Shown piece by piece: positions 3,319-11,873 of a DNA stretch of 64,000 bases (the stretch's first letter is position 1; each line of letters begins with the position of its first letter). The notes below the pieces were generated by a model. The model was not told the DNA's origin and ran no database searches. It saw only the letters and a list, made by a program, of their open reading frames with translations. The translations under genes and the position numbers were made by a program. Location: positions 3,906,001 to 3,970,000 of the forward strand of contig NZ_CP047166.1 of NCBI RefSeq assembly GCF_016806125.1. The letters are read 5' to 3'. The DNA is from Ponticoccus alexandrii (GTDB taxonomy: Bacteria > Pseudomonadota > Alphaproteobacteria > Rhodobacterales > Rhodobacteraceae).

Positions 3319-5094
3319 ATGAAGATGACCACCGAAGAAGCCTTTGTGAAAGTGCTCCAGCGCCACGGGATCGAACATGCCTTCGGCATCATCGGCTCTG
3401 CCTTCATGCCGATTTCGGACCTGTTCCCGCAGGCGGGCGTGACCTTCTGGGACTGCGCGCACGAGGGGTCGGGCGGGATGATGGCCGATGGCTACACCCG
3501 CGCCTCGGGCAGGATGTCGATGATGATCGCCCAGAACGGGCCGGGCATCACCAACTTCGTCACCGCCGTGAAGACCGCCTACTGGAACCATACGCCGCTG
3601 CTGCTCGTCACGCCGCAGGCCGCCAACAAGACCATCGGGCAGGGCGGCTTTCAGGAGGTCGAGCAGATGGCGCTCTTCCGCGACATGGTCGCCTATCAGG
3701 AAGAGGTGCGCGACCCCTCTCGCGTGGCAGAGGTGCTGACCCGCGTGATCTCGAAGGCGAAGCAGGCCAGCGCGCCCGCGCAGATCAACATGCCGCGCGA
3801 TTTCTGGACGCAGGTGGTGGATATCGAGATCCCCGAGCCGATCCTTTTCGAGCGTTCCTCGGGCGGCGAGGAGTCGGTGGCGGCGGCGGCCAGGCTCTTG
3901 TCAGAGGCCAAGGCCCCGGTGATCCTGAACGGCGCGGGCGTGGTGCTGTCGAAGGGCGGCATCGCGGCCTCCATGGCGCTGGCGGAGCGCCTCGATGCGC
4001 CGGTCTGCGTGGGCTACCAGCACAACGACGCCTTCCCGGGCTCTCACCCGCTCTTTGCCGGGCCCTTGGGCTACAACGGCTCCAAGGCGGGGATGGAACT
4101 GATCAAGGGCGCCGACGTGGTGCTGGCGCTGGGCACGCGGCTCAACCCGTTCTCGACGCTGCCGGGCTACGGCATGGACTACTGGCCCAAGGACGCGAAG
4201 GTCATTCAGGTCGACATCAACCCCGACCGCATCGGCCTGACCAAGAAGGTCGCCGTGGGCATCGTCGGGGACGCGGCCAAGGTGGCGCGCGGCCTGCTGG
4301 CGGGCCTGTCGGACAGCGCCGGGGACGCGGGCCGCGACGCCCGCAAGGCCACCATCGCCGAGACCAAGTCGAAGTGGGCGCAGCAGCTGTCCTCGATGGA
4401 TCACGAGGATGACGACCCCGGCACAACGTGGAACGAGCGCGCCCGCGCCGACAAGCCCGACTGGATGAGCCCCCGCATGGCGTGGCGCGCGATCCAGTCG
4501 GCCCTGCCCGCCGATGCGATCATCTCCTCCGACATCGGCAACAACTGCGCCATCGGCAATGCCTACCCGGCCTTCGACGAGGGGCGAAAGTACCTCGCCC
4601 CCGGGCTCTTCGGTCCCTGCGGCTATGGCTTGCCCGCGATCATCGGCGCCAAGATCGGCTGCCCCGACGTGCCCGTCGTGGGCTTTGCCGGGGACGGCGC
4701 CTTCGGCATCTCGGTCACGGAACTGACCGCCATCGGGCGCGGCCAGTGGCCCGCGATCACGCAGATCGTCTTCCGCAACTACCAGTGGGGCGCGGAAAAG
4801 CGGAATTCGACGCTGTGGTACGACGACAACTTCGTCGGCACCGAGCTGGACGAACAGGTGAGCTATGCGGGCATCGCGCAGGCCTGCGGGCTGAAGGGCG
4901 TCGTGGCGCGCACCATGGAAGAGCTGCGCGCGGCGCTGACGCAGGCCATTGCCGACCAGAAGGCCGGAACGACCACGCTGATCGAGGCCATGATCAATCA
5001 GGAGTTGGGAGAGCCCTTCCGCCGCGACGCCATGAAAAAGCCGGTCTCGGTGGCAGGCATCGACCGCGCCGACATGCGTCCGCAGGAGGTCTGA
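3319..5094 (+). CDS. xsc: sulfoacetaldehyde acetyltransferase (Xsc)
   Basis: A 591-residue ThDP enzyme that phosphorolyses sulfoacetaldehyde to acetyl phosphate and sulfite, the central C-S bond cleavage of taurine and related C2-sulfonate degradation. The N-terminal ThDP (PYR) domain has the conserved glutamate in CAHEGSGGMMADGYTRASG (E49) and the family-typical stretch QAANKTIGQGGFQEVEQM. The C-terminal domain has the ThDP/Mg motif starting GDGAFGISVTELTAIG (G458-G460) and ending with FRNYQWG. Length and block order match Xsc rather than acetolactate synthase. The start follows AAGGGAGG. The natural partners pta and soeABC follow. No taurine transporter, transaminase or TauR is in the window, so sulfoacetaldehyde must come from genes elsewhere. 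Confidence 0.96.
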   Translation: MKMTTEEAFVKVLQRHGIEHAFGIIGSAFMPISDLFPQAGVTFWDCAHEGSGGMMADGYTRASGRMSMMIAQNGPGITNFVTAVKTAYWNHTPLLLVTPQAANKTIGQGGFQEVEQMALFRDMVAYQEEVRDPSRVAEVLTRVISKAKQASAPAQINMPRDFWTQVVDIEIPEPILFERSSGGEESVAAAARLLSEAKAPVILNGAGVVLSKGGIAASMALAERLDAPVCVGYQHNDAFPGSHPLFAGPLGYNGSKAGMELIKGADVVLALGTRLNPFSTLPGYGMDYWPKDAKVIQVDINPDRIGLTKKVAVGIVGDAAKVARGLLAGLSDSAGDAGRDARKATIAETKSKWAQQLSSMDHEDDDPGTTWNERARADKPDWMSPRMAWRAIQSALPADAIISSDIGNNCAIGNAYPAFDEGRKYLAPGLFGPCGYGLPAIIGAKIGCPDVPVVGFAGDGAFGISVTELTAIGRGQWPAITQIVFRNYQWGAEKRNSTLWYDDNFVGTELDEQVSYAGIAQACGLKGVVARTMEELRAALTQAIADQKAGTTTLIEAMINQELGEPFRRDAMKKPVSVAGIDRADMRPQEV

Positions 5095-5154: not shown

Positions 5155-5210
5155 GAGGGGGCGCTGCCCCCGCCTTCGGCCCACCGCGGGTATTTGGACC
5201 AGGAAGAAAC
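5155..5210 (+). repeat. intergenic stem-loop repeat, family A
   Basis: This is a copy of a recurring intergenic element: a 5-bp GC hairpin GGGGGcgctgCCCCC (5157-5171), a variable GC-rich stretch, then a conserved tail CGGGTATTTGGACC ending AGGAAGAAAC. It lies just past the xsc stop in the orientation of xsc. Related copies are at 19045-19110 (minus), 20837-20894, 39584-39647 and 39735-39800, with a tail-only copy at 9049-9078 (minus). Placement at 3' ends suggests a terminator or RNA 3'-end role. Confidence 0.7.
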
Positions 5211-5282: not shown

Positions 5283-6140
5283 CTATCCCGGCCCGGATCG
5301 CAGGGCCAGCGTCAGGACGGTGGCATCGGCGATGTCCTCTGGCGTGGCGCCGCGCGACAGGTCGCAGACCGGGCGCGCGAAGCCCTGCAACACCGGCCCC
5401 ACCGCCTGCGCCCCCGCCAGTTCCTGCGCCAGCTTGTAGGCGATGTTGCCCGCGTCGAGGCTGGGGAAGACCAGCACGTTGGCTCCCCCGCCGCCCGTGC
5501 CCTTGCGCCGCGCGATGGCCGGGTTCAGCGCCGCATCCCCCTGAACCGGACCCGCGAAGCCGGTCATTTCGGCGGCGCGCCGCACGGTGTCGACGCTCTC
5601 TCCCGCGCCGCTGGTTCCGGTGGCATAGCTCAGCAGGGCGACCCGCGCCTCTCCCAGCAGCGCCCGGGCCCAGGCGGCAGAGGCGCGGGCGATGGCGGCA
5701 AGCGCCCCGGCATCCGGGGCGACCGTCACCGCGCAATCCGACCAGAGCATCTCTCGCCCGTCGGGAAAGCGCATCAGGAAGAAGGACGAGGCCAGACCGT
5801 CGCGCAGGCCGATCGCCAGCGACGCAGCCTCTATCACGCGGCGGGTCGTCGTCTCGGCGCCCGCGACCATGGCGCAGGCCTCTCCGCAGGCGACCATGGC
5901 GGCGGCGCGGTAAAGCGGCCGCGTCAGCATCCGCCGCGCCACGCCTTCGCGCATCCCGCGCCCCTCGACCAGCGCCGCCAGTTGCGCATCAGTCGCCTCG
6001 GAGACCGGCACCGGCTCTGCCAGCCCCTCGGCCCGCAGGCGGTCGCGGGCGCGGGCGACGCGCGGCTCGTCCCATTCGGGAAAGACCACCCGTCCGGGCC
6101 GGGCCCGCGCCGCCACCCGCGCCCGTTCCAATGCCGTCAT
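5283..6140 (-). CDS. pta: phosphate acetyltransferase
   Basis: A 285-residue single-domain phosphotransacetylase (acetyl phosphate + CoA to acetyl-CoA + Pi), the step after Xsc. Family features are the opening LERARVAARARPGRVVFPE, the central segment PLYRAAAMVACGEACAMVAG, and the C-terminal block VQGDAALNPAIARRKGTG followed by ANVLVFPSLDAGNIAYKL, which forms the CoA/acetyl-phosphate site. It is somewhat shorter than the usual 320-330 residues. It is transcribed toward xsc (convergent), not co-directional as I would expect in sulfonate operons, and is divergent from soeA with 106 nt between the two starts. Confidence 0.93.
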   Translation of the reverse strand: MTALERARVAARARPGRVVFPEWDEPRVARARDRLRAEGLAEPVPVSEATDAQLAALVEGRGMREGVARRMLTRPLYRAAAMVACGEACAMVAGAETTTRRVIEAASLAIGLRDGLASSFFLMRFPDGREMLWSDCAVTVAPDAGALAAIARASAAWARALLGEARVALLSYATGTSGAGESVDTVRRAAEMTGFAGPVQGDAALNPAIARRKGTGGGGANVLVFPSLDAGNIAYKLAQELAGAQAVGPVLQGFARPVCDLSRGATPEDIADATVLTLALRSGPG

Positions 6141-6246: not shown

Positions 6247-9048
6247 ATGAAAGACGAGGCAGAGCTCGACCTGACCCCGGCGGTCTCCGACACGGTCCGC
6301 AAGACCACCTGCTACATGTGCGCCTGCCGCTGCGGCATCGACGTCCACCTGAAGGACGGACGCGTGACCTATATCGAGGGCAACCGCGACCACCCGGTGA
6401 ACCGCGGCGTCCTTTGTGCCAAGGGCAGCGCGGGGCTGATGCAGCACCTCTCCCCGGCACGGCTCCGGGCGCCGTTGAAGCGCACAGGCCCGCGCGGATC
6501 CGGCCAGTTCGAGGAAATCTCGTGGGAGGAGGCGCTGGAGACGGCGCGCGGCTGGCTGGCGCCTCTGCGGGAGACGGCGCCGGAAAAGCTCGCCTTCTTC
6601 ACCGGGCGCGACCAGAGCCAAAGCTTCACCGGCTGGTGGGCGCAGCAGTTCGGCACCCCCAACTACGCGGCGCATGGCGGCTTCTGCTCGGTCAACATGG
6701 CGGCGGCGGGGATCTACACCATGGGCGGCGCCTTCTGGGAGTTCGGCAGCCCGGACTGGGAGCACGCAAAGCTCTTCCTGCTGTTCGGTGTGGCCGAGGA
6801 TCACGATTCGAACCCGATCAAGCTGGGGCTGGCGCGGCTGAAGGAACGCGGCGCCAAAGTCATCGGGGTGAACCCGGTGCGCACGGGCTACAACGCAATC
6901 GCCGACGACTGGATCGGCATCACGCCGGGCACCGACGGGTTGCTGGTGTTGTCGCTCATCCACTGCCTGCTGAAGGCGGGGCGGATCGACACGGATTATC
7001 TGTCGCGTTTCACCAATGCGCCGGTGCTGCTGGTCTCGGACCCGAAGTCGCCGGACTTCGGCCTCTTCCTGCGCGACGACGAGGGCCGCCCGCTGGTGAT
7101 CGACCGTCGCACCGGCAAGCCCGCCGCATGGGACGCGCCCGGGGTGCGCCCGGACCTCACCGGCACCCTGCGCCGCGCCGGGCAAACCCACGTCAGCGTC
7201 ATGCACCGCATCGCCGAGCGCTACCTGTCGGACGACTACACGCCCGAGGCGGTGGCCGAGCGCTGCGGCCTGCCCGCCGCCCGCATCCGCGCGCTGGCGG
7301 CAGAGATCGCCCGCGCCGCCTTTGACGCGCCGGTGGTGCTGGACCGCCCGTGGACGGACTTTCGCGGCAAGCGGCACGAGACCATGACGGGCCGCCCCGT
7401 CGCCATGCACGCCATGCGCGGCGTCTCGGCCCATGCCAACGGCTTCCAGACCTGCCGCGCGATCCACCTGCTGCAGATCCTCATCGGCGCGGTCGAGACC
7501 CCCGGCGGGATGCGGTTCAAGCCGCCCTACCCCAAGCCCGCCGAGGCCCACCCCCGCCCGCATTCCAAGGCCACGCCGGGACAGCCGCTGAACGGCCCAC
7601 ATCTGGGCTACCCGCAAGGCCCCGAGGATCTGGCACTCAAGCCCGACGGCAGCCCCGCGCGGATCGACAAGGCCTTCACCTGGGAGAACGCGCTGTCGGC
7701 GCATGGCCTGATGCACATGGTGATCTCGAACGCCCACGCGGGCGATCCCTACCACATCGACACGCTGTTCCTGTATATGGCCAACATGGCGTGGAATTCC
7801 TCGATGAACACGCGCGGCACCATGGCGATGCTGGCGGATACCGACGACAGCGGCGCCTACGTCATCCCGCATGTCATCGTCTCGGACGCCTACTCGTCGG
7901 AAATGGTGGCCTATGCCGACCTCGTCCTGCCGGACACCACCTACCTCGAACGCCACGACTGCATCTCGCTGCTCGACCGCCCGATCTCGGAACCGGATGC
8001 GGCGGCGGACGCGATCCGCTGGCCGGTGGTGGAACCGGACAGGGACGTGCGCGGCTTTCAGTCGGTGCTCTGCGACCTCGGCGCGCGGCTGGGCCTGCCC
8101 GGCTTCACGGCAGAGGACGGCGGGCCGGCATTCCGCGACTACGCCGACTACATCATGCGCCACGAGCGCCGCCCGGGCATCGGCCCGCTGGCGGGCTGGC
8201 GCATGGGCGCCAAAGGCCTGCAACACGGACGCGGCGGCCCGAACGAGGCGCAACTCGACAGCTACATCGGGCAGGGGGGCTTCTTTCAGGCCCACGTCCC
8301 GGAAGAGGCGGCCTATTTCAAGCCATGGAACAGCGCCTATCAGGACTGGGCGGTGGAGCTTGGCCTGACCGACAAACCCGCCCCCTACCTCTTTCAGCTC
8401 TACGCCGAACCGCTGCGCCGCTTCCAGCGCGCCGCCGAGGGGCATGGGCCAGAGCAGCCGCCCGATCACCTGCGCGCCCGCATCGCGCAGACCCACGACC
8501 CGCTGCCCCTCTGGTATGCCCCCGACGCGGCAGAGGGCTTCCCCCTGCACGCCCTGACCCAGCGGCCCATGGCCATGTATCATTCATGGGGCTCGCAGAA
8601 CGCGTGGCTGCGGCAGATCCACGGGCAGAACCCGCTCTACGTGCCCACGGCGCTGATGCGCGAACACGGGCTGGCGGACGGCGACTGGGCGCGCCTGACC
8701 TCGGCGCATGGCTCGATCACCGTGCCGGTGCTGGAAATGGCCGCGCTGAACCCGCAGACGGTCTGGACATGGAACGCCATCGGCAAGCGCGGCGGGGCAT
8801 GGGCGCTGGACCCCGGCGCCCCCGAGGCCACCAAGGGCTTCCTCATGAACCACATCATACACGAGCTTCTGCCCCCCAAGGGTGACGGCCTGCGCTGGTC
8901 CAACTCGGACCCCATCACCGGTCAGGCCGCATGGTTCGACCTGCGCGTGCGCCTGGAAAAGGCCGAAGGGCCGGAGGCGGCGATCCCGCCGCAGGCCAGC
9001 CCCGTCCCACCGGCACCGGCATCGCGCCCCCGCACAAAGGGCACCTGA
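6247..9048 (+). CDS. soeA: sulfite dehydrogenase (quinone) molybdopterin subunit SoeA
   Basis: A 933-residue molybdopterin oxidoreductase of the DMSO-reductase family. The N-terminus has the [4Fe-4S] ligand set C22-x2-C25-x3-C29-x27-C57 (TCYMCACRCG then VLCAKG). It lacks a twin-arginine signal, which fits the cytoplasmic SoeA type. The MGD-binding regions include GVAEDHDSNPIKLG, NPVRTGYNAIADDWIGITPG and DLVLPDTTYLERHD, and a C-terminal molydopterin dinucleotide-binding domain begins near SWGSQNAWLRQIHGQNPLY. With SoeB and SoeC it should oxidise sulfite to sulfate and pass electrons to quinone. Adjacency to xsc and pta supports sulfite as substrate over polysulfide or thiosulfate. The strong ribosome site AAGGGAGGA precedes the ATG. 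Confidence 0.92.
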   Translation: MKDEAELDLTPAVSDTVRKTTCYMCACRCGIDVHLKDGRVTYIEGNRDHPVNRGVLCAKGSAGLMQHLSPARLRAPLKRTGPRGSGQFEEISWEEALETARGWLAPLRETAPEKLAFFTGRDQSQSFTGWWAQQFGTPNYAAHGGFCSVNMAAAGIYTMGGAFWEFGSPDWEHAKLFLLFGVAEDHDSNPIKLGLARLKERGAKVIGVNPVRTGYNAIADDWIGITPGTDGLLVLSLIHCLLKAGRIDTDYLSRFTNAPVLLVSDPKSPDFGLFLRDDEGRPLVIDRRTGKPAAWDAPGVRPDLTGTLRRAGQTHVSVMHRIAERYLSDDYTPEAVAERCGLPAARIRALAAEIARAAFDAPVVLDRPWTDFRGKRHETMTGRPVAMHAMRGVSAHANGFQTCRAIHLLQILIGAVETPGGMRFKPPYPKPAEAHPRPHSKATPGQPLNGPHLGYPQGPEDLALKPDGSPARIDKAFTWENALSAHGLMHMVISNAHAGDPYHIDTLFLYMANMAWNSSMNTRGTMAMLADTDDSGAYVIPHVIVSDAYSSEMVAYADLVLPDTTYLERHDCISLLDRPISEPDAAADAIRWPVVEPDRDVRGFQSVLCDLGARLGLPGFTAEDGGPAFRDYADYIMRHERRPGIGPLAGWRMGAKGLQHGRGGPNEAQLDSYIGQGGFFQAHVPEEAAYFKPWNSAYQDWAVELGLTDKPAPYLFQLYAEPLRRFQRAAEGHGPEQPPDHLRARIAQTHDPLPLWYAPDAAEGFPLHALTQRPMAMYHSWGSQNAWLRQIHGQNPLYVPTALMREHGLADGDWARLTSAHGSITVPVLEMAALNPQTVWTWNAIGKRGGAWALDPGAPEATKGFLMNHIIHELLPPKGDGLRWSNSDPITGQAAWFDLRVRLEKAEGPEAAIPPQASPVPPAPASRPRTKGT

Positions 9049-9078
9049 CCCATGTTTCTTCTTGGTAAAAATACCGAC
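9049..9078 (-). repeat. tail-only copy of intergenic repeat family A
   Basis: Read on the minus strand, this gives GGTATTTTTACCAAGAAGAAAC, close to the conserved tail of the family A element (GTATTT...GAAGAA). The GC hairpin part is degenerate. It begins directly after the soeA stop and marks the upstream border of the RNA-ligase gene. Confidence 0.5.
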
Positions 9079-9170
9079 TGCCCCGGCCAGCCCCCGGCAT
9101 CTCGGCCCGCTGCGATGAGAACCGTGCATCTCCTCGCGCGAAGAGCGGTTCCCGCGCCCCGGTGGCGGCG

Positions 9171-9815
9171 ATGACGGAAACCCGCTTCAAATATCCCCGG
9201 ACCTTCCACCTGCCGGGCTCGCCCGGCATGACCTCGGACGACAAGCTTGCGCGCGACCTTTCGGCTTTCGCGGGGGCCGAGGTGGTCGTCACTGAAAAGA
9301 TGGATGGCGAGAACACGACGCTATACCCCGACGGCTTTCACGCACGGTCTCTCGACAGCGGTTTCCATCCCTCACGGGCGCGGCTTGCAGCGCTTCACGG
9401 TCAGATCGCTCATCGCATCCCGGCTGGCCGCCGCATTTGCGGAGAGAACCTGTTTGCCCGCCACAGCCTAGCCTATGACGACCTTCCGTCGCATTTTCTC
9501 GTGTTCTCGATCTGGACCGGCGACACCTGCCTGTCGTGGGACGAAACCCGGGCAGACTGCATCAGGCTGTCCCTTACCCCGGTTCCGGAACTTTACCGCG
9601 GCCCGTTCACAACAGACCTGCCCGACCGCATGGCGCGGGCGCTGGACACCGACCGGCAAGAAGGCTTCGTTCTGCGCCTCGCGTCGGAGTTCAAGCGAGA
9701 GGCCTTTTCGCGCTCCGTGGTGAAATGGGTGCGAAAGAACCATGTGCAGACAGACGAACACTGGCGCAGGGGGCCGCTCGTCGCCAACGGCTTCCGCGAA
9801 GGAGAGGGTTCATGA
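9171..9815 (+). CDS. RNA ligase-like nucleotidyltransferase (Rnl2-type core)
   Basis: A 214-residue protein with the ordered motifs of covalent nucleotidyltransferases. Motif I is EKMDGEN (Lys43 the expected AMP-accepting residue), motif III is RICGENLFARHSLAY (about 88-102), motif IIIa is HFLVFSIWT (108-116), motif IV is EGFVLRL (164-170) and motif V is VVKWVRKNHV (183-192). No extra domain is present, so it is a minimal catalytic core resembling small Rnl2-like RNA ligases that join 3'-OH and 5'-phosphate ends. I see no kinase or phosphatase partner nearby. It sits between soeA and soeB, and its TGA overlaps the soeB ATG (ATGA), so it is translationally coupled to soeB. ATG 9171 is preferred over GTG 9162. 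GC is a little lower than the neighbours. Confidence 0.82.
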   Translation: MTETRFKYPRTFHLPGSPGMTSDDKLARDLSAFAGAEVVVTEKMDGENTTLYPDGFHARSLDSGFHPSRARLAALHGQIAHRIPAGRRICGENLFARHSLAYDDLPSHFLVFSIWTGDTCLSWDETRADCIRLSLTPVPELYRGPFTTDLPDRMARALDTDRQEGFVLRLASEFKREAFSRSVVKWVRKNHVQTDEHWRRGPLVANGFREGEGS

Positions 9816-10561
9816 CCACCCTGCCGCCGCCCGGCCCGGTCAAGCTGGGCCTCGTCATCGACCTCGACACCTGCGTCGGCTGTCACGCCTGCGTCGTGGC
9901 CTGCAAGGGCTGGAACGATCAGGCCTATGGCGCGCCGCTGTCGGATCAGGACCCCTACGGCGCCGACCCCTCGGGCACCTTCCTGAACCGCGTGCACAGC
10001 TACGAGGTCACGCCACCGGACGCTCCGCCGCAGCTGGTGCATTTCCCCAAGTCCTGCCTGCATTGCGAGGATGCGCCCTGCGTCACCGTCTGCCCAACCG
10101 GCGCCAGCTACAAGCGTGCCGAGGACGGCATCGTGCTGGTCAACGAGTCCGCCTGCATCGGCTGCGGCCTCTGCGCATGGGCCTGCCCCTATGGCACGCG
10201 AGAGATGGATGGCGCCGAGCAGGTGATGAAGAAATGCACCCTCTGCGTGGACCGAATCTACAACGAGACCCTGCCCGAGGAAGACCGCCAGCCCGCCTGC
10301 GTGCGCACCTGTCCCGCCAAGGCCCGCCATTTCGGCGACCTGAACGACCCGGACAGCGCCGTCAGCCAGCTTGTGGCCGAGCGGGGCGGGATCTCCCTCA
10401 TGCCAGAGATGGGCACGAAACCCGTCAACCAGTACCTGCCCCCCCGCCCCCGCGATACGTGGGAGGGCGAGGTCGATGTGCTCGCCCCGTGGCTGGAGCC
10501 GGTGGCCGAAGAGCCGAAAGGCTTCCTCGCATGGCTCGACAAGACGCTGGAGCGGCTGTGA
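9812..10561 (+). CDS. soeB: sulfite dehydrogenase iron-sulfur subunit SoeB
   Basis: A 249-residue ferredoxin-like electron-transfer subunit of the DmsB/SoeB type. Four cysteine clusters are visible: CVGCHACVVAC near residue 23, CLHCEDAPCVTVCP near 80, CIGCGLCAWACPYG near 113, and CTLCVDRI with CVRTCPAKA near 145-170. This is enough for four [4Fe-4S] centres. It lacks a signal peptide, consistent with a cytoplasmic complex anchored by SoeC. The start is an ATG overlapping the stop of the RNA-ligase gene, with GGAGAGGG upstream. The last part (EPKGFLAWLDKTLERL) is helical and variable in the family. Confidence 0.92.
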   Translation: MTTLPPPGPVKLGLVIDLDTCVGCHACVVACKGWNDQAYGAPLSDQDPYGADPSGTFLNRVHSYEVTPPDAPPQLVHFPKSCLHCEDAPCVTVCPTGASYKRAEDGIVLVNESACIGCGLCAWACPYGTREMDGAEQVMKKCTLCVDRIYNETLPEEDRQPACVRTCPAKARHFGDLNDPDSAVSQLVAERGGISLMPEMGTKPVNQYLPPRPRDTWEGEVDVLAPWLEPVAEEPKGFLAWLDKTLERL

Positions 10562-10578
10562 CAAGACCCGACCGACCC

Positions 10579-10902
10579 GCAGCCTTCGCACCCGCGCGAC
10601 TGCCGACCCGACTCGCAGACGTCGCACCCGCCCGACTGCCGAATCGACTCGCAGGCTTCGCGCCCGCCCGTCTGCCGACACGCCCCGCAGGCCCCGCGCC
10701 AGTTCGACGACCGACCCGACCCGGAGGCCCCGTGCGTGCTCGACGACCGGCGCGGCCCGCAGAGGTCGCGCCCACACGACTGCCAACTCGACCCGAAGGT
10801 CTCGCGCCCGAACGACTGCCGGACCGGCCCGCAGGCTCCGCCCCCGCGCGACTGCAGAACCGGCCCGCAGGCCTCACGTCCGCCCGACGGCCAAACGGGC
10901 CC
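10579..10902 (+). repeat. nine tandem 36-nt degenerate repeats
   Basis: Nine consecutive 36-nt units start at 10579, 10615, 10651, 10687, 10723, 10759, 10795, 10831 and 10867. Most open with GCAGGC and share CGACTGCCG in the middle and CCC or CTC at the end. As the unit is a multiple of three, one plus-strand frame reads a 12-residue repeat with consensus AGxAPARLPTRP, but this frame matches neither soeB nor soeC and has no start. The array begins 17 nt after the soeB stop and separates soeB from soeC. There are no spacers, so it is not a CRISPR. Confidence 0.9.
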
Positions 10903-10953
10903 GCGTGTTCGGGCCCGTCCGGGTCGGACACGGCGCCAGCAGCGCTCCGTAGA

Positions 10954-10991: not shown

Positions 10992-11873
10992 ATGCATCCG
11001 GCGCGCTCGCTGATCCTGTTCACCACGCTGTCGGGCCTCGGCTTTGGCCTGCTGATCTGGCTGGGCATCGACCCCTCGCCCCCCATGGGCTGGGTCGGTG
11101 CGATCTTCTACGCGCTGGCTTTCGCGCTGGCGCTCGGTGGCCTCGCGGCCTCGGCCTTTCACCTCGGCCACCCGGAACGCGCCCTGCGCGCCTTCACGCA
11201 ATGGCGGTCGAGCTGGCTGTCGCGAGAGGCCTGCCTCTCGGTCGCCGCGCTGACGGTTTCCGGCCTCCACGCCGCCGCTCTGGTGCTCTTTGGGATCCAC
11301 ATCGCGCCGCTGGGGGGGCTCTCGGCGCTGCTCTGCCTCGCCACGATCACCGCGACCGCGATGATCTACACGCAGCTGCGCACCGTGCCACGCTGGCACC
11401 ACTGGTCAACGCCCGCGCTCTTTGCGCTGACCGGGCTGGCGGGCGGGGCGCTGCTGTCGGGGCGCACGACCGCCGCCGCCCTGCTGCTGGCCGCCACGGG
11501 GCTGGCGCAACTGGGCTGGTGGCTAGGCGGCGACCGGCGCGAGGCGACCGACGGCAGCACCCGCGCCACCGCCACCGGGCTTGGGGCGCGCGGCGCGGTG
11601 CGCCCCTTCGAGCCGCCGCACACCGGCGACAGCTACCTGACCCGCGAGATGGCCTTCGTCGTCGCCCGCAAGCATGCGCGGAAACTGCGGATGATCGCGC
11701 TGGTCCTGATGGCGGGCCTGCCGGCGCTTTTGCTGCTGGCGGCTCCGGGCCATGTCAACGGAGCACTGGCGCTGCTGATGCATCTTGCGGGAACCCTTGT
11801 CGCGCGCTGGCTGTTCTTTGCAGAGGCGCGGCACGTCATGGCGCTGTACTACCCGCCGAGGGTCGAAAGGTAG
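10992..11873 (+). CDS. soeC: sulfite dehydrogenase membrane anchor SoeC (DmsC family)
   Basis: A 293-residue integral membrane protein of the DmsC family that should anchor SoeAB to the cytoplasmic face of the membrane and reduce quinone. The family signature AFHLGHPERALRAFTQWRSS lies near residues 55-75, followed by SWLSREACLSV. Seven to eight hydrophobic segments are visible, starting with ILFTTLSGLGFGLLIWLG. The start has CCGGAGG upstream. It is separated from soeB by 430 nt of repeats, unusual for subunits expected in equal amounts. Confidence 0.9.
   Translation: MHPARSLILFTTLSGLGFGLLIWLGIDPSPPMGWVGAIFYALAFALALGGLAASAFHLGHPERALRAFTQWRSSWLSREACLSVAALTVSGLHAAALVLFGIHIAPLGGLSALLCLATITATAMIYTQLRTVPRWHHWSTPALFALTGLAGGALLSGRTTAAALLLAATGLAQLGWWLGGDRREATDGSTRATATGLGARGAVRPFEPPHTGDSYLTREMAFVVARKHARKLRMIALVLMAGLPALLLLAAPGHVNGALALLMHLAGTLVARWLFFAEARHVMALYYPPRVER

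Follow-up and report, generated by a model that had tools for sequence, protein, structure and literature searches.

The window, that is, the whole stretch of 64,000 nucleotides from Ponticoccus alexandrii analysed here, carries on its forward strand the genes xsc (positions 3319-5094; sulfoacetaldehyde acetyltransferase, matching NCBIfam TIGR03457 with 915.8 bits, above the cut-off), soeA (6247-9048; the molybdopterin oxidoreductase subunit of sulfite dehydrogenase, 933 amino acids), soeB (9812-10561; the 4Fe-4S, ferredoxin-like subunit, 249 amino acids), and soeC (10992-11873; a DmsC-like membrane anchor). The molybdopterin, 4Fe-4S, and anchor genes stand in the SoeABC order near xsc. Their soe names are based on this gene context and on the annotation of soeCBA beside pta in Ruegeria pomeroyi, as they reached no soe-specific model of NCBIfam. 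The interval between xsc and soeA contains a pta gene on the reverse strand (5283-6140), whose family profile is matched only from position 81 onward. Between soeA and soeB, a further forward-strand ORF (9171-9815, with an alternative GTG start at 9162) encodes a stand-alone protein of 214 amino acids, which was identified as a DRB0100-type nucleotidyltransferase with an RNA ligase fold on the basis of the ORF, Pfam and PHROGs matches, an alignment, and a predicted structure. It was confirmed that the stop codon of this ligase gene (TGA, 9813-9815) overlaps with the start codon of soeB (ATG, 9812-9814), forming a 4-nt ATGA overlap at 9812-9815. The Shine-Dalgarno-like site of soeB, AAGGAG (9799-9804, forward strand), lies within the ligase gene and scores -10.4 kcal/mol, while the ribosome site of the ligase itself is weaker (-6.4 kcal/mol). 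On the other side, 122 bp separate soeA from the ligase gene, so that the overlap exists on the soeB side only. The idea of a structured leader ahead of the ligase gene was rejected, since the segment 9030-9185 folds no better than its shuffles (z 0.47). The repeat that had been predicted to border the ligase gene upstream is real; it is a dispersed repeat at 9055-9075 on the forward strand (TTTCTTCTTGGTAAAAATACC), with a second window copy at 5189-5209 (three mismatches). Its supposed tie to the ligase did not hold, since a ligase-free congener (G002) has a close copy at the same place.

All of the RNA ligase motifs that had been read from the ORF, namely motifs I, III, IIIa, IV, and V with Lys43, were found again in an alignment of the window protein with 46 relatives. 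Motif I is TEKMDGEN (9291-9314), in which Lys43, equivalent to Lys40 of DRB0100, is the predicted adenylylated lysine. The alignment also located motif III (GENLFA, residues 91-96, 9441-9458), motif IV (EGFVLR, residues 164-169, 9660-9677), and motif V (KWV, residues 185-187, 9723-9731), all on the forward strand, and motif IIIa is present as FSxW. In motif I, every residue but M44 is constant, T41, E42, K43, D45, G46, E47, and N48 being identical in 47 of 47 sequences; G91, F112, E164, G165, V167, R169, K185, and V187 are constant as well. The protein matches Pfam RNA_ligase (PF09414) at 1.8e-29 with 103.5 bits against a curated cut-off of 27, and PHROGs phrog_34045 at 8.9e-70 and an RNA ligase family at 7.1e-56. 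NCBIfam gave no match, and a sequence search of the PDB found no relatives, its hits (E 0.32 at best) being attributed to chance. The predicted structure (pLDDT 91, pTM 0.89) consists of a single nucleotidyltransferase domain of about 210 residues and little else; 27 residues follow KWV, the very end being of low confidence. It matches the catalytic domains of RNA ligases, T4 Rnl2 being the top match (Z 15.6, rmsd 2.9, 174 residues). A minimal, motif-complete protein of RNA ligase fold is supported. Within the RNA ligase superfamily, it is predicted to be an ATP-dependent lysyl-adenylyltransferase of the DRB0100 type, having the Rnl2-like catalytic domain only.

Is this arrangement found in other Rhodobacteraceae? 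Among 394 sampled genomes of the family, 16 (the window genome counted) have a relative of the ligase better than 1e-30 and 28 have one at 1e-3, while SoeA was found at 1e-100 in 287. The soeA-ligase-soeB order is present in five species of four genera: the window, G219 (whose ligase protein is the same as that of Actibacterium ureilyticum, L030), G274 and G397 (both of the genus g274), and G157. Four of them were in the 394-genome draw, and G397 came from a search of its genus. When 389 genomes around G219 were drawn in a second round, no new soe case appeared, and the 26 genomes listed there had all been in the first draw. Since the order recurs in five species, the possibility of a single-strain accident was rejected, and the case that the original prediction had set against itself, a random single-strain insertion with decayed motifs, does not apply to the window, where the motifs are intact. 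In G274 and G397, the ligase gene shares 4 nt with each neighbour (ATGA on the soeA side, GTGA on the soeB side), and both overlaps are ATGA in G157. In Actibacterium, the ligase gene overlaps on the soeA side only and ends 84 bp before soeB. No earlier description of an RNA ligase between soeA and soeB was found in the literature searched, most subscription journals lying outside it.

The ligase gene is absent from some close relatives. The congener G002, whose SoeA is 95% identical, has the same junction and the same repeat without the ligase; the segment missing there corresponds approximately to 9108-9810 of the forward strand of the window in a pairwise alignment. Of the seven species in genus g274, five have a direct 4-nt overlap of soeA and soeB, and two have the ligase gene at that place; in the SoeA tree, the ligase-free G398 is the sister of the ligase-bearing G274 (98/97). 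The G157 copy (L015:1498-2136) still occupies the soe slot with an open frame and has lost E42, D45, G46, and N48 of motif I. Decay is also seen in a separate clade of Rhodobacteraceae ligases, where two copies (L012 of G304 and L014 of G038) are interrupted by in-frame stops. In the SoeA trees, the window groups with G002 among ligase-free genomes; the ligase tree, built from 48 sequences, conflicts with them at some points. In this ligase tree, the window groups with Actibacterium (100/97), the G157 ligase forms a long branch of unsure placement, and the five soe copies (G274 being L031 and G397 being L032) lie on one side of a supported branch (99/90) together with L036 of Roseobacter sp. 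CCS2, in which (region L036:6134-8636) the ligase gene is 49 bp behind a fused ATP-sulfurylase/APS-kinase gene. AU tests reject neither a single soe clade (p 0.078; 0.077 without G157) nor a grouping like that of SoeA (p 0.135). The ligase gene may have been inserted once, long ago, and then lost many times; it may have been transferred in one piece with soeA and soeB around it; or it may have entered repeatedly.

Could the ligase be a passenger on its way out, which was acquired, tolerated in a harmless slot, and has no present function? The patchy presence within two genera and the long-branched G157 copy with its decayed motif I would suit this reading, as would the third-position GC content, which is 0.75 in the ligase gene and 0.90 in soeA. 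The ligase value is lower than that of soeA in four of four hosts compared and lower than that of soeB in three of four. However, no residue that is invariant across the family alignment has changed in the window copy, and the two pairs whose dS is near or below 1 give dN/dS values far under 1 (0.12 for G274 versus G397 and 0.22 for the window versus Actibacterium); for the other ligase pairs, dS is at least 1.48 or outside the range of the method. These sequence comparisons suggest that the ligase is under purifying selection, and a mere passenger is rather improbable. Between G274 and G397, dS is 0.78 for the ligase gene as compared with 0.34 for soeA and 0.41 for soeB, roughly a twofold difference that would be consistent with a weaker codon constraint or with a separate history.

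The original prediction also held that soeA and soeB are normally adjacent, so that the insertion would be a sign that RNA ligation is specifically tied to sulfite or sulfonate metabolism. In an explanation of this kind, the ligase would repair RNA damaged in sulfite oxidation or couple the state of RNA to SoeB synthesis, and it would have been placed in soeABC for co-regulation. The recurrence of the position across five species from four genera, with 4-nt overlaps on one or both sides, speaks for it, as do the presence of xsc upstream also in L030, L031, and L032 and the position of the sixth clade member behind the ATP-sulfurylase/APS-kinase gene. To see what lies at this junction elsewhere, 156 soeA-soeB loci were collected and 155 were read, one (L279) being dropped with its soeB out of view. 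The 155 junctions comprise the 30 best SoeA matches, 116 usable ones of 117 further matches, and nine added on purpose (G219, G157, and seven g274 species); the set thus follows SoeA similarity instead of a random draw, and of the five ligase junctions in it, four were included knowingly. The gap between soeA and soeB is 0 bp or less in 37 junctions, 21-100 bp in 45, 101-400 bp in 47, and more than 400 bp in 26. Without the added nine, the numbers in the same bins are 32, 45, 47, and 22 of 146, so that 69 gaps exceed 100 bp and the window is the only ligase case. Normal adjacency therefore fails, and the insertion as a pointer to such a specific link is not supported. The soeB-soeC gap served as a control: it is 20 bp or less in 141 of the 149 loci with soeC in view and more than 100 bp only in G002 (364 bp), a list from which the window gap of 430 bp, as given by the ORF ends, is missing. 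Of the soeA-soeB gaps in the same 149 loci, 67 are longer than 100 bp and 20 longer than 400 bp. In the window, the soeB-soeC gap contains a degenerate tandem array of 36-bp units (10568-10904, about nine copies).

The 26 inserts longer than 400 bp are of eight unrelated kinds according to homology and Pfam searches of representatives: an alpha/beta hydrolase (nine junctions), the RNA ligase (five), a LysE-type protein (four), DUF6882 (three), an opposite-strand ORF resembling a secreted protein (two), and one each of an M42 peptidase, a membrane-like protein of unknown kind, and a methyltransferase-like protein (21.8 bits with a cut-off of 21.2). Since the junction accepts unrelated genes, the location alone says little about the role of the ligase. 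Moreover, of the 287 sampled genomes in which SoeA was found, only 4 were found with the ligase at the junction, the congener and five of the seven g274 species lack it, and one copy has lost most of motif I. The specific link to sulfite or sulfonate metabolism is thus unsupported, and I regard it as quite unlikely.

An ATGA overlap of stop and start codons ends 134 of the 155 soeA genes. Among the short ORFs in the gaps, 33 of 46 have both 4-nt overlaps, a number that arises in part by itself, since every open gap whose frame fits will show both. Among the cassettes recognised by homology (hydrolase, LysE, DUF6882, and ligase), both overlaps are present in 12 of 21, with L123 and L271 left uncounted as their listed ORF is not the DUF6882 frame. 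In 29 junctions (for example, L117 and L118), there is a conserved small membrane-like ORF of 46-77 amino acids with a hydrophobic stretch and a TWDPE-like motif, which overlaps both soeA and soeB by 4 nt in 20 of the 29; two examples had no Pfam match. This ORF could encode an unrecognised small subunit. In L140 and L251, there are serial inserts, a LysE-type gene starting from the soeA overlap being followed by a small membrane-like ORF running into the soeB overlap. A tentative idea, which I hold to be possible rather than probable, is that the operon has a natural slot for genes at the soeA-soeB junction. The ATGA seam might let unrelated single genes enter and leave without a scar, each taking over one or both overlaps and being translated with the sulfonate operon while SoeB is still made; the RNA ligase, the alpha/beta hydrolase, and the LysE exporter would then be alternative payloads. 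If the overlap is indeed such a seam, it offers a model for how single genes enter operons that stay unbroken and are expressed at once.

Relatives of the ligase were found in 32 phage records, of which 30 are longer than 200 kb, and in 70 plasmid records; a GTDB scan gave 338 confirmed stretches, of which the best 80 were kept. With an iterated profile built from DRB0098, HD-Pnk genes were sought within 4 kb on the same strand as the ligase genes. HD-Pnk is found beside the ligase in 73 of the 76 kept loci of other groups, and two of the three loci without it (L050 and L107) end within 250 bp behind the ligase gene. In Rhodobacteraceae, none of 18 loci (17 genomes) with close relatives of the window ligase (42-100% identity) has an HD-Pnk gene beside it, a count in which L189 was left out and L001 covers just 1.5 kb per side. 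HD-Pnk is not foreign to Rhodobacteraceae, as 9 of the 13 loci with distant ligase matches (L017-L029) have an HD-Pnk-like gene. A 12-row HD-Pnk profile found none in the window genome (best E 0.005, in a long HD-like frame) or in G274 and G397, gave a partial match in G157 (4e-4; the genome is 80% complete), and matched strongly in G551, G203, and G219, in the last of which the gene is next to a distant ligase. Thus, the lack of an end-healing partner nearby, as originally predicted, was borne out for HD-Pnk, the partner covered by the search, both beside the ligase and genome-wide. Relatives of DRB0099, the PARG partner, were not found in the GTDB loci.

DRB0100 is reported to self-adenylylate, the AMP adduct being lost in a K40A mutant; no ligation of DNA or RNA was detected under any condition used, nor was DNA ligation when the two operon partners were added (PMC1997131). 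Self-adenylylation is thus shown for this homologue and is only predicted for the window ligase. These results and the one catalytic domain of the model, with no second, would agree with an enzyme that adenylylates a target other than an RNA break, such as a protein, a small molecule, or a special nucleic acid, and that is no ligase in vivo. However, the frequent neighbour HD-Pnk is an end-healing enzyme, and the relatives in jumbo phages, described (PMC7824862) as carriers of RNA repair genes, point to strand sealing. A non-RNA acceptor therefore seems unlikely.

I consider it fairly probable, taking all of this together, that the window ligase is a working RNA-sealing enzyme without its partner and that an insertion-tolerant soeA-soeB junction carries its gene as a cassette, one among several that consist of single, unrelated genes. 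The best reading of its recurrence is a gene-accepting junction and not a functional link. Lys43 would most likely be charged with AMP, which would be passed to the 5′-phosphate of a broken RNA, and the end would be sealed to a 3′-OH. As no HD-Pnk was found in the genome, the substrate would be ends already bearing 5′-phosphate and 3′-OH. Through the stop/start overlap, the operon mRNA would express the ligase with SoeB synthesis unbroken. The main fact against this explanation is the six-member clade, every member of which is beside a sulfur gene; this is not predicted by chance placement. In addition, no ligation by DRB0100 was detected, the junctions were ordered by SoeA similarity, and the AU tests do not separate an old insertion with losses from repeated entry. 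The observation behind the original prediction is confirmed, and its interpretation is partly supported: the motif-complete ligase fold, the position in the soe operon, the overlap with soeB, and the missing HD-Pnk hold, but normal adjacency and the link drawn from it do not. RNA sealing and co-transcription are inferred, as is the lack of a specific role in sulfite oxidation. The case calls for caution in using operon position as evidence of function: a gene between two subunits of one enzyme looks linked, although unrelated genes have repeatedly been accepted at this junction. In one bacterial family, moreover, these sealing enzymes occur without the end-healing partner that usually accompanies them, which offers a simpler system for finding the substrate of DRB0100-type enzymes.

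The Ruegeria pomeroyi SoeABC (SPO3557-3559) likewise has three subunits with pta nearby, but its soeB and soeA locus tags are consecutive and no gene is listed between them (PMC4334477). When the window ligase was set against the known ligase families, an Rnl2-like catalytic fold was found, but neither the C-terminal domain of Rnl2 nor the N-terminal domain of Rnl5. T4 Rnl2 has its own C-terminal domain, while the window ligase has no further domain after motif V; the identity of the two in the structural alignment is 20%. The 'RNA ligase (ATP)' DR_RS15930, known as DRB0094, DraRnl, or Rnl5, belongs to the RNA ligase superfamily and is encoded 4 kb from DRB0100 in D. radiodurans. It has 342 residues with the lysine at 165, 164 residues lying ahead of it, in contrast to 42 before Lys43, and the window ligase did not match it at 1e-6. 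Membership in Rnl5 was rejected, since the window ligase lacks the long N-terminal part. The match on the Deinococcus megaplasmid MP1 is followed by PARG and then by an HD/AAA kinase, and its start, MRVKYPS, agrees with the cloning primer for DRB0100 given by Blasius et al. 2007 (PMC1997131). DRB0100 is induced by DNA damage according to two reports (PMC1997131, PMC11833690), and the three-gene repair operon DRB0100-0099-0098 is also described in the latter, a 2025 paper. DRB0100, the first gene of this operon, shares with the window ligase 50% identity over 98% of the query, a single adenylyltransferase domain, and the same motifs. It is followed by PARG and HD-Pnk, whereas the window ligase adjoins neither and sits in soeABC.
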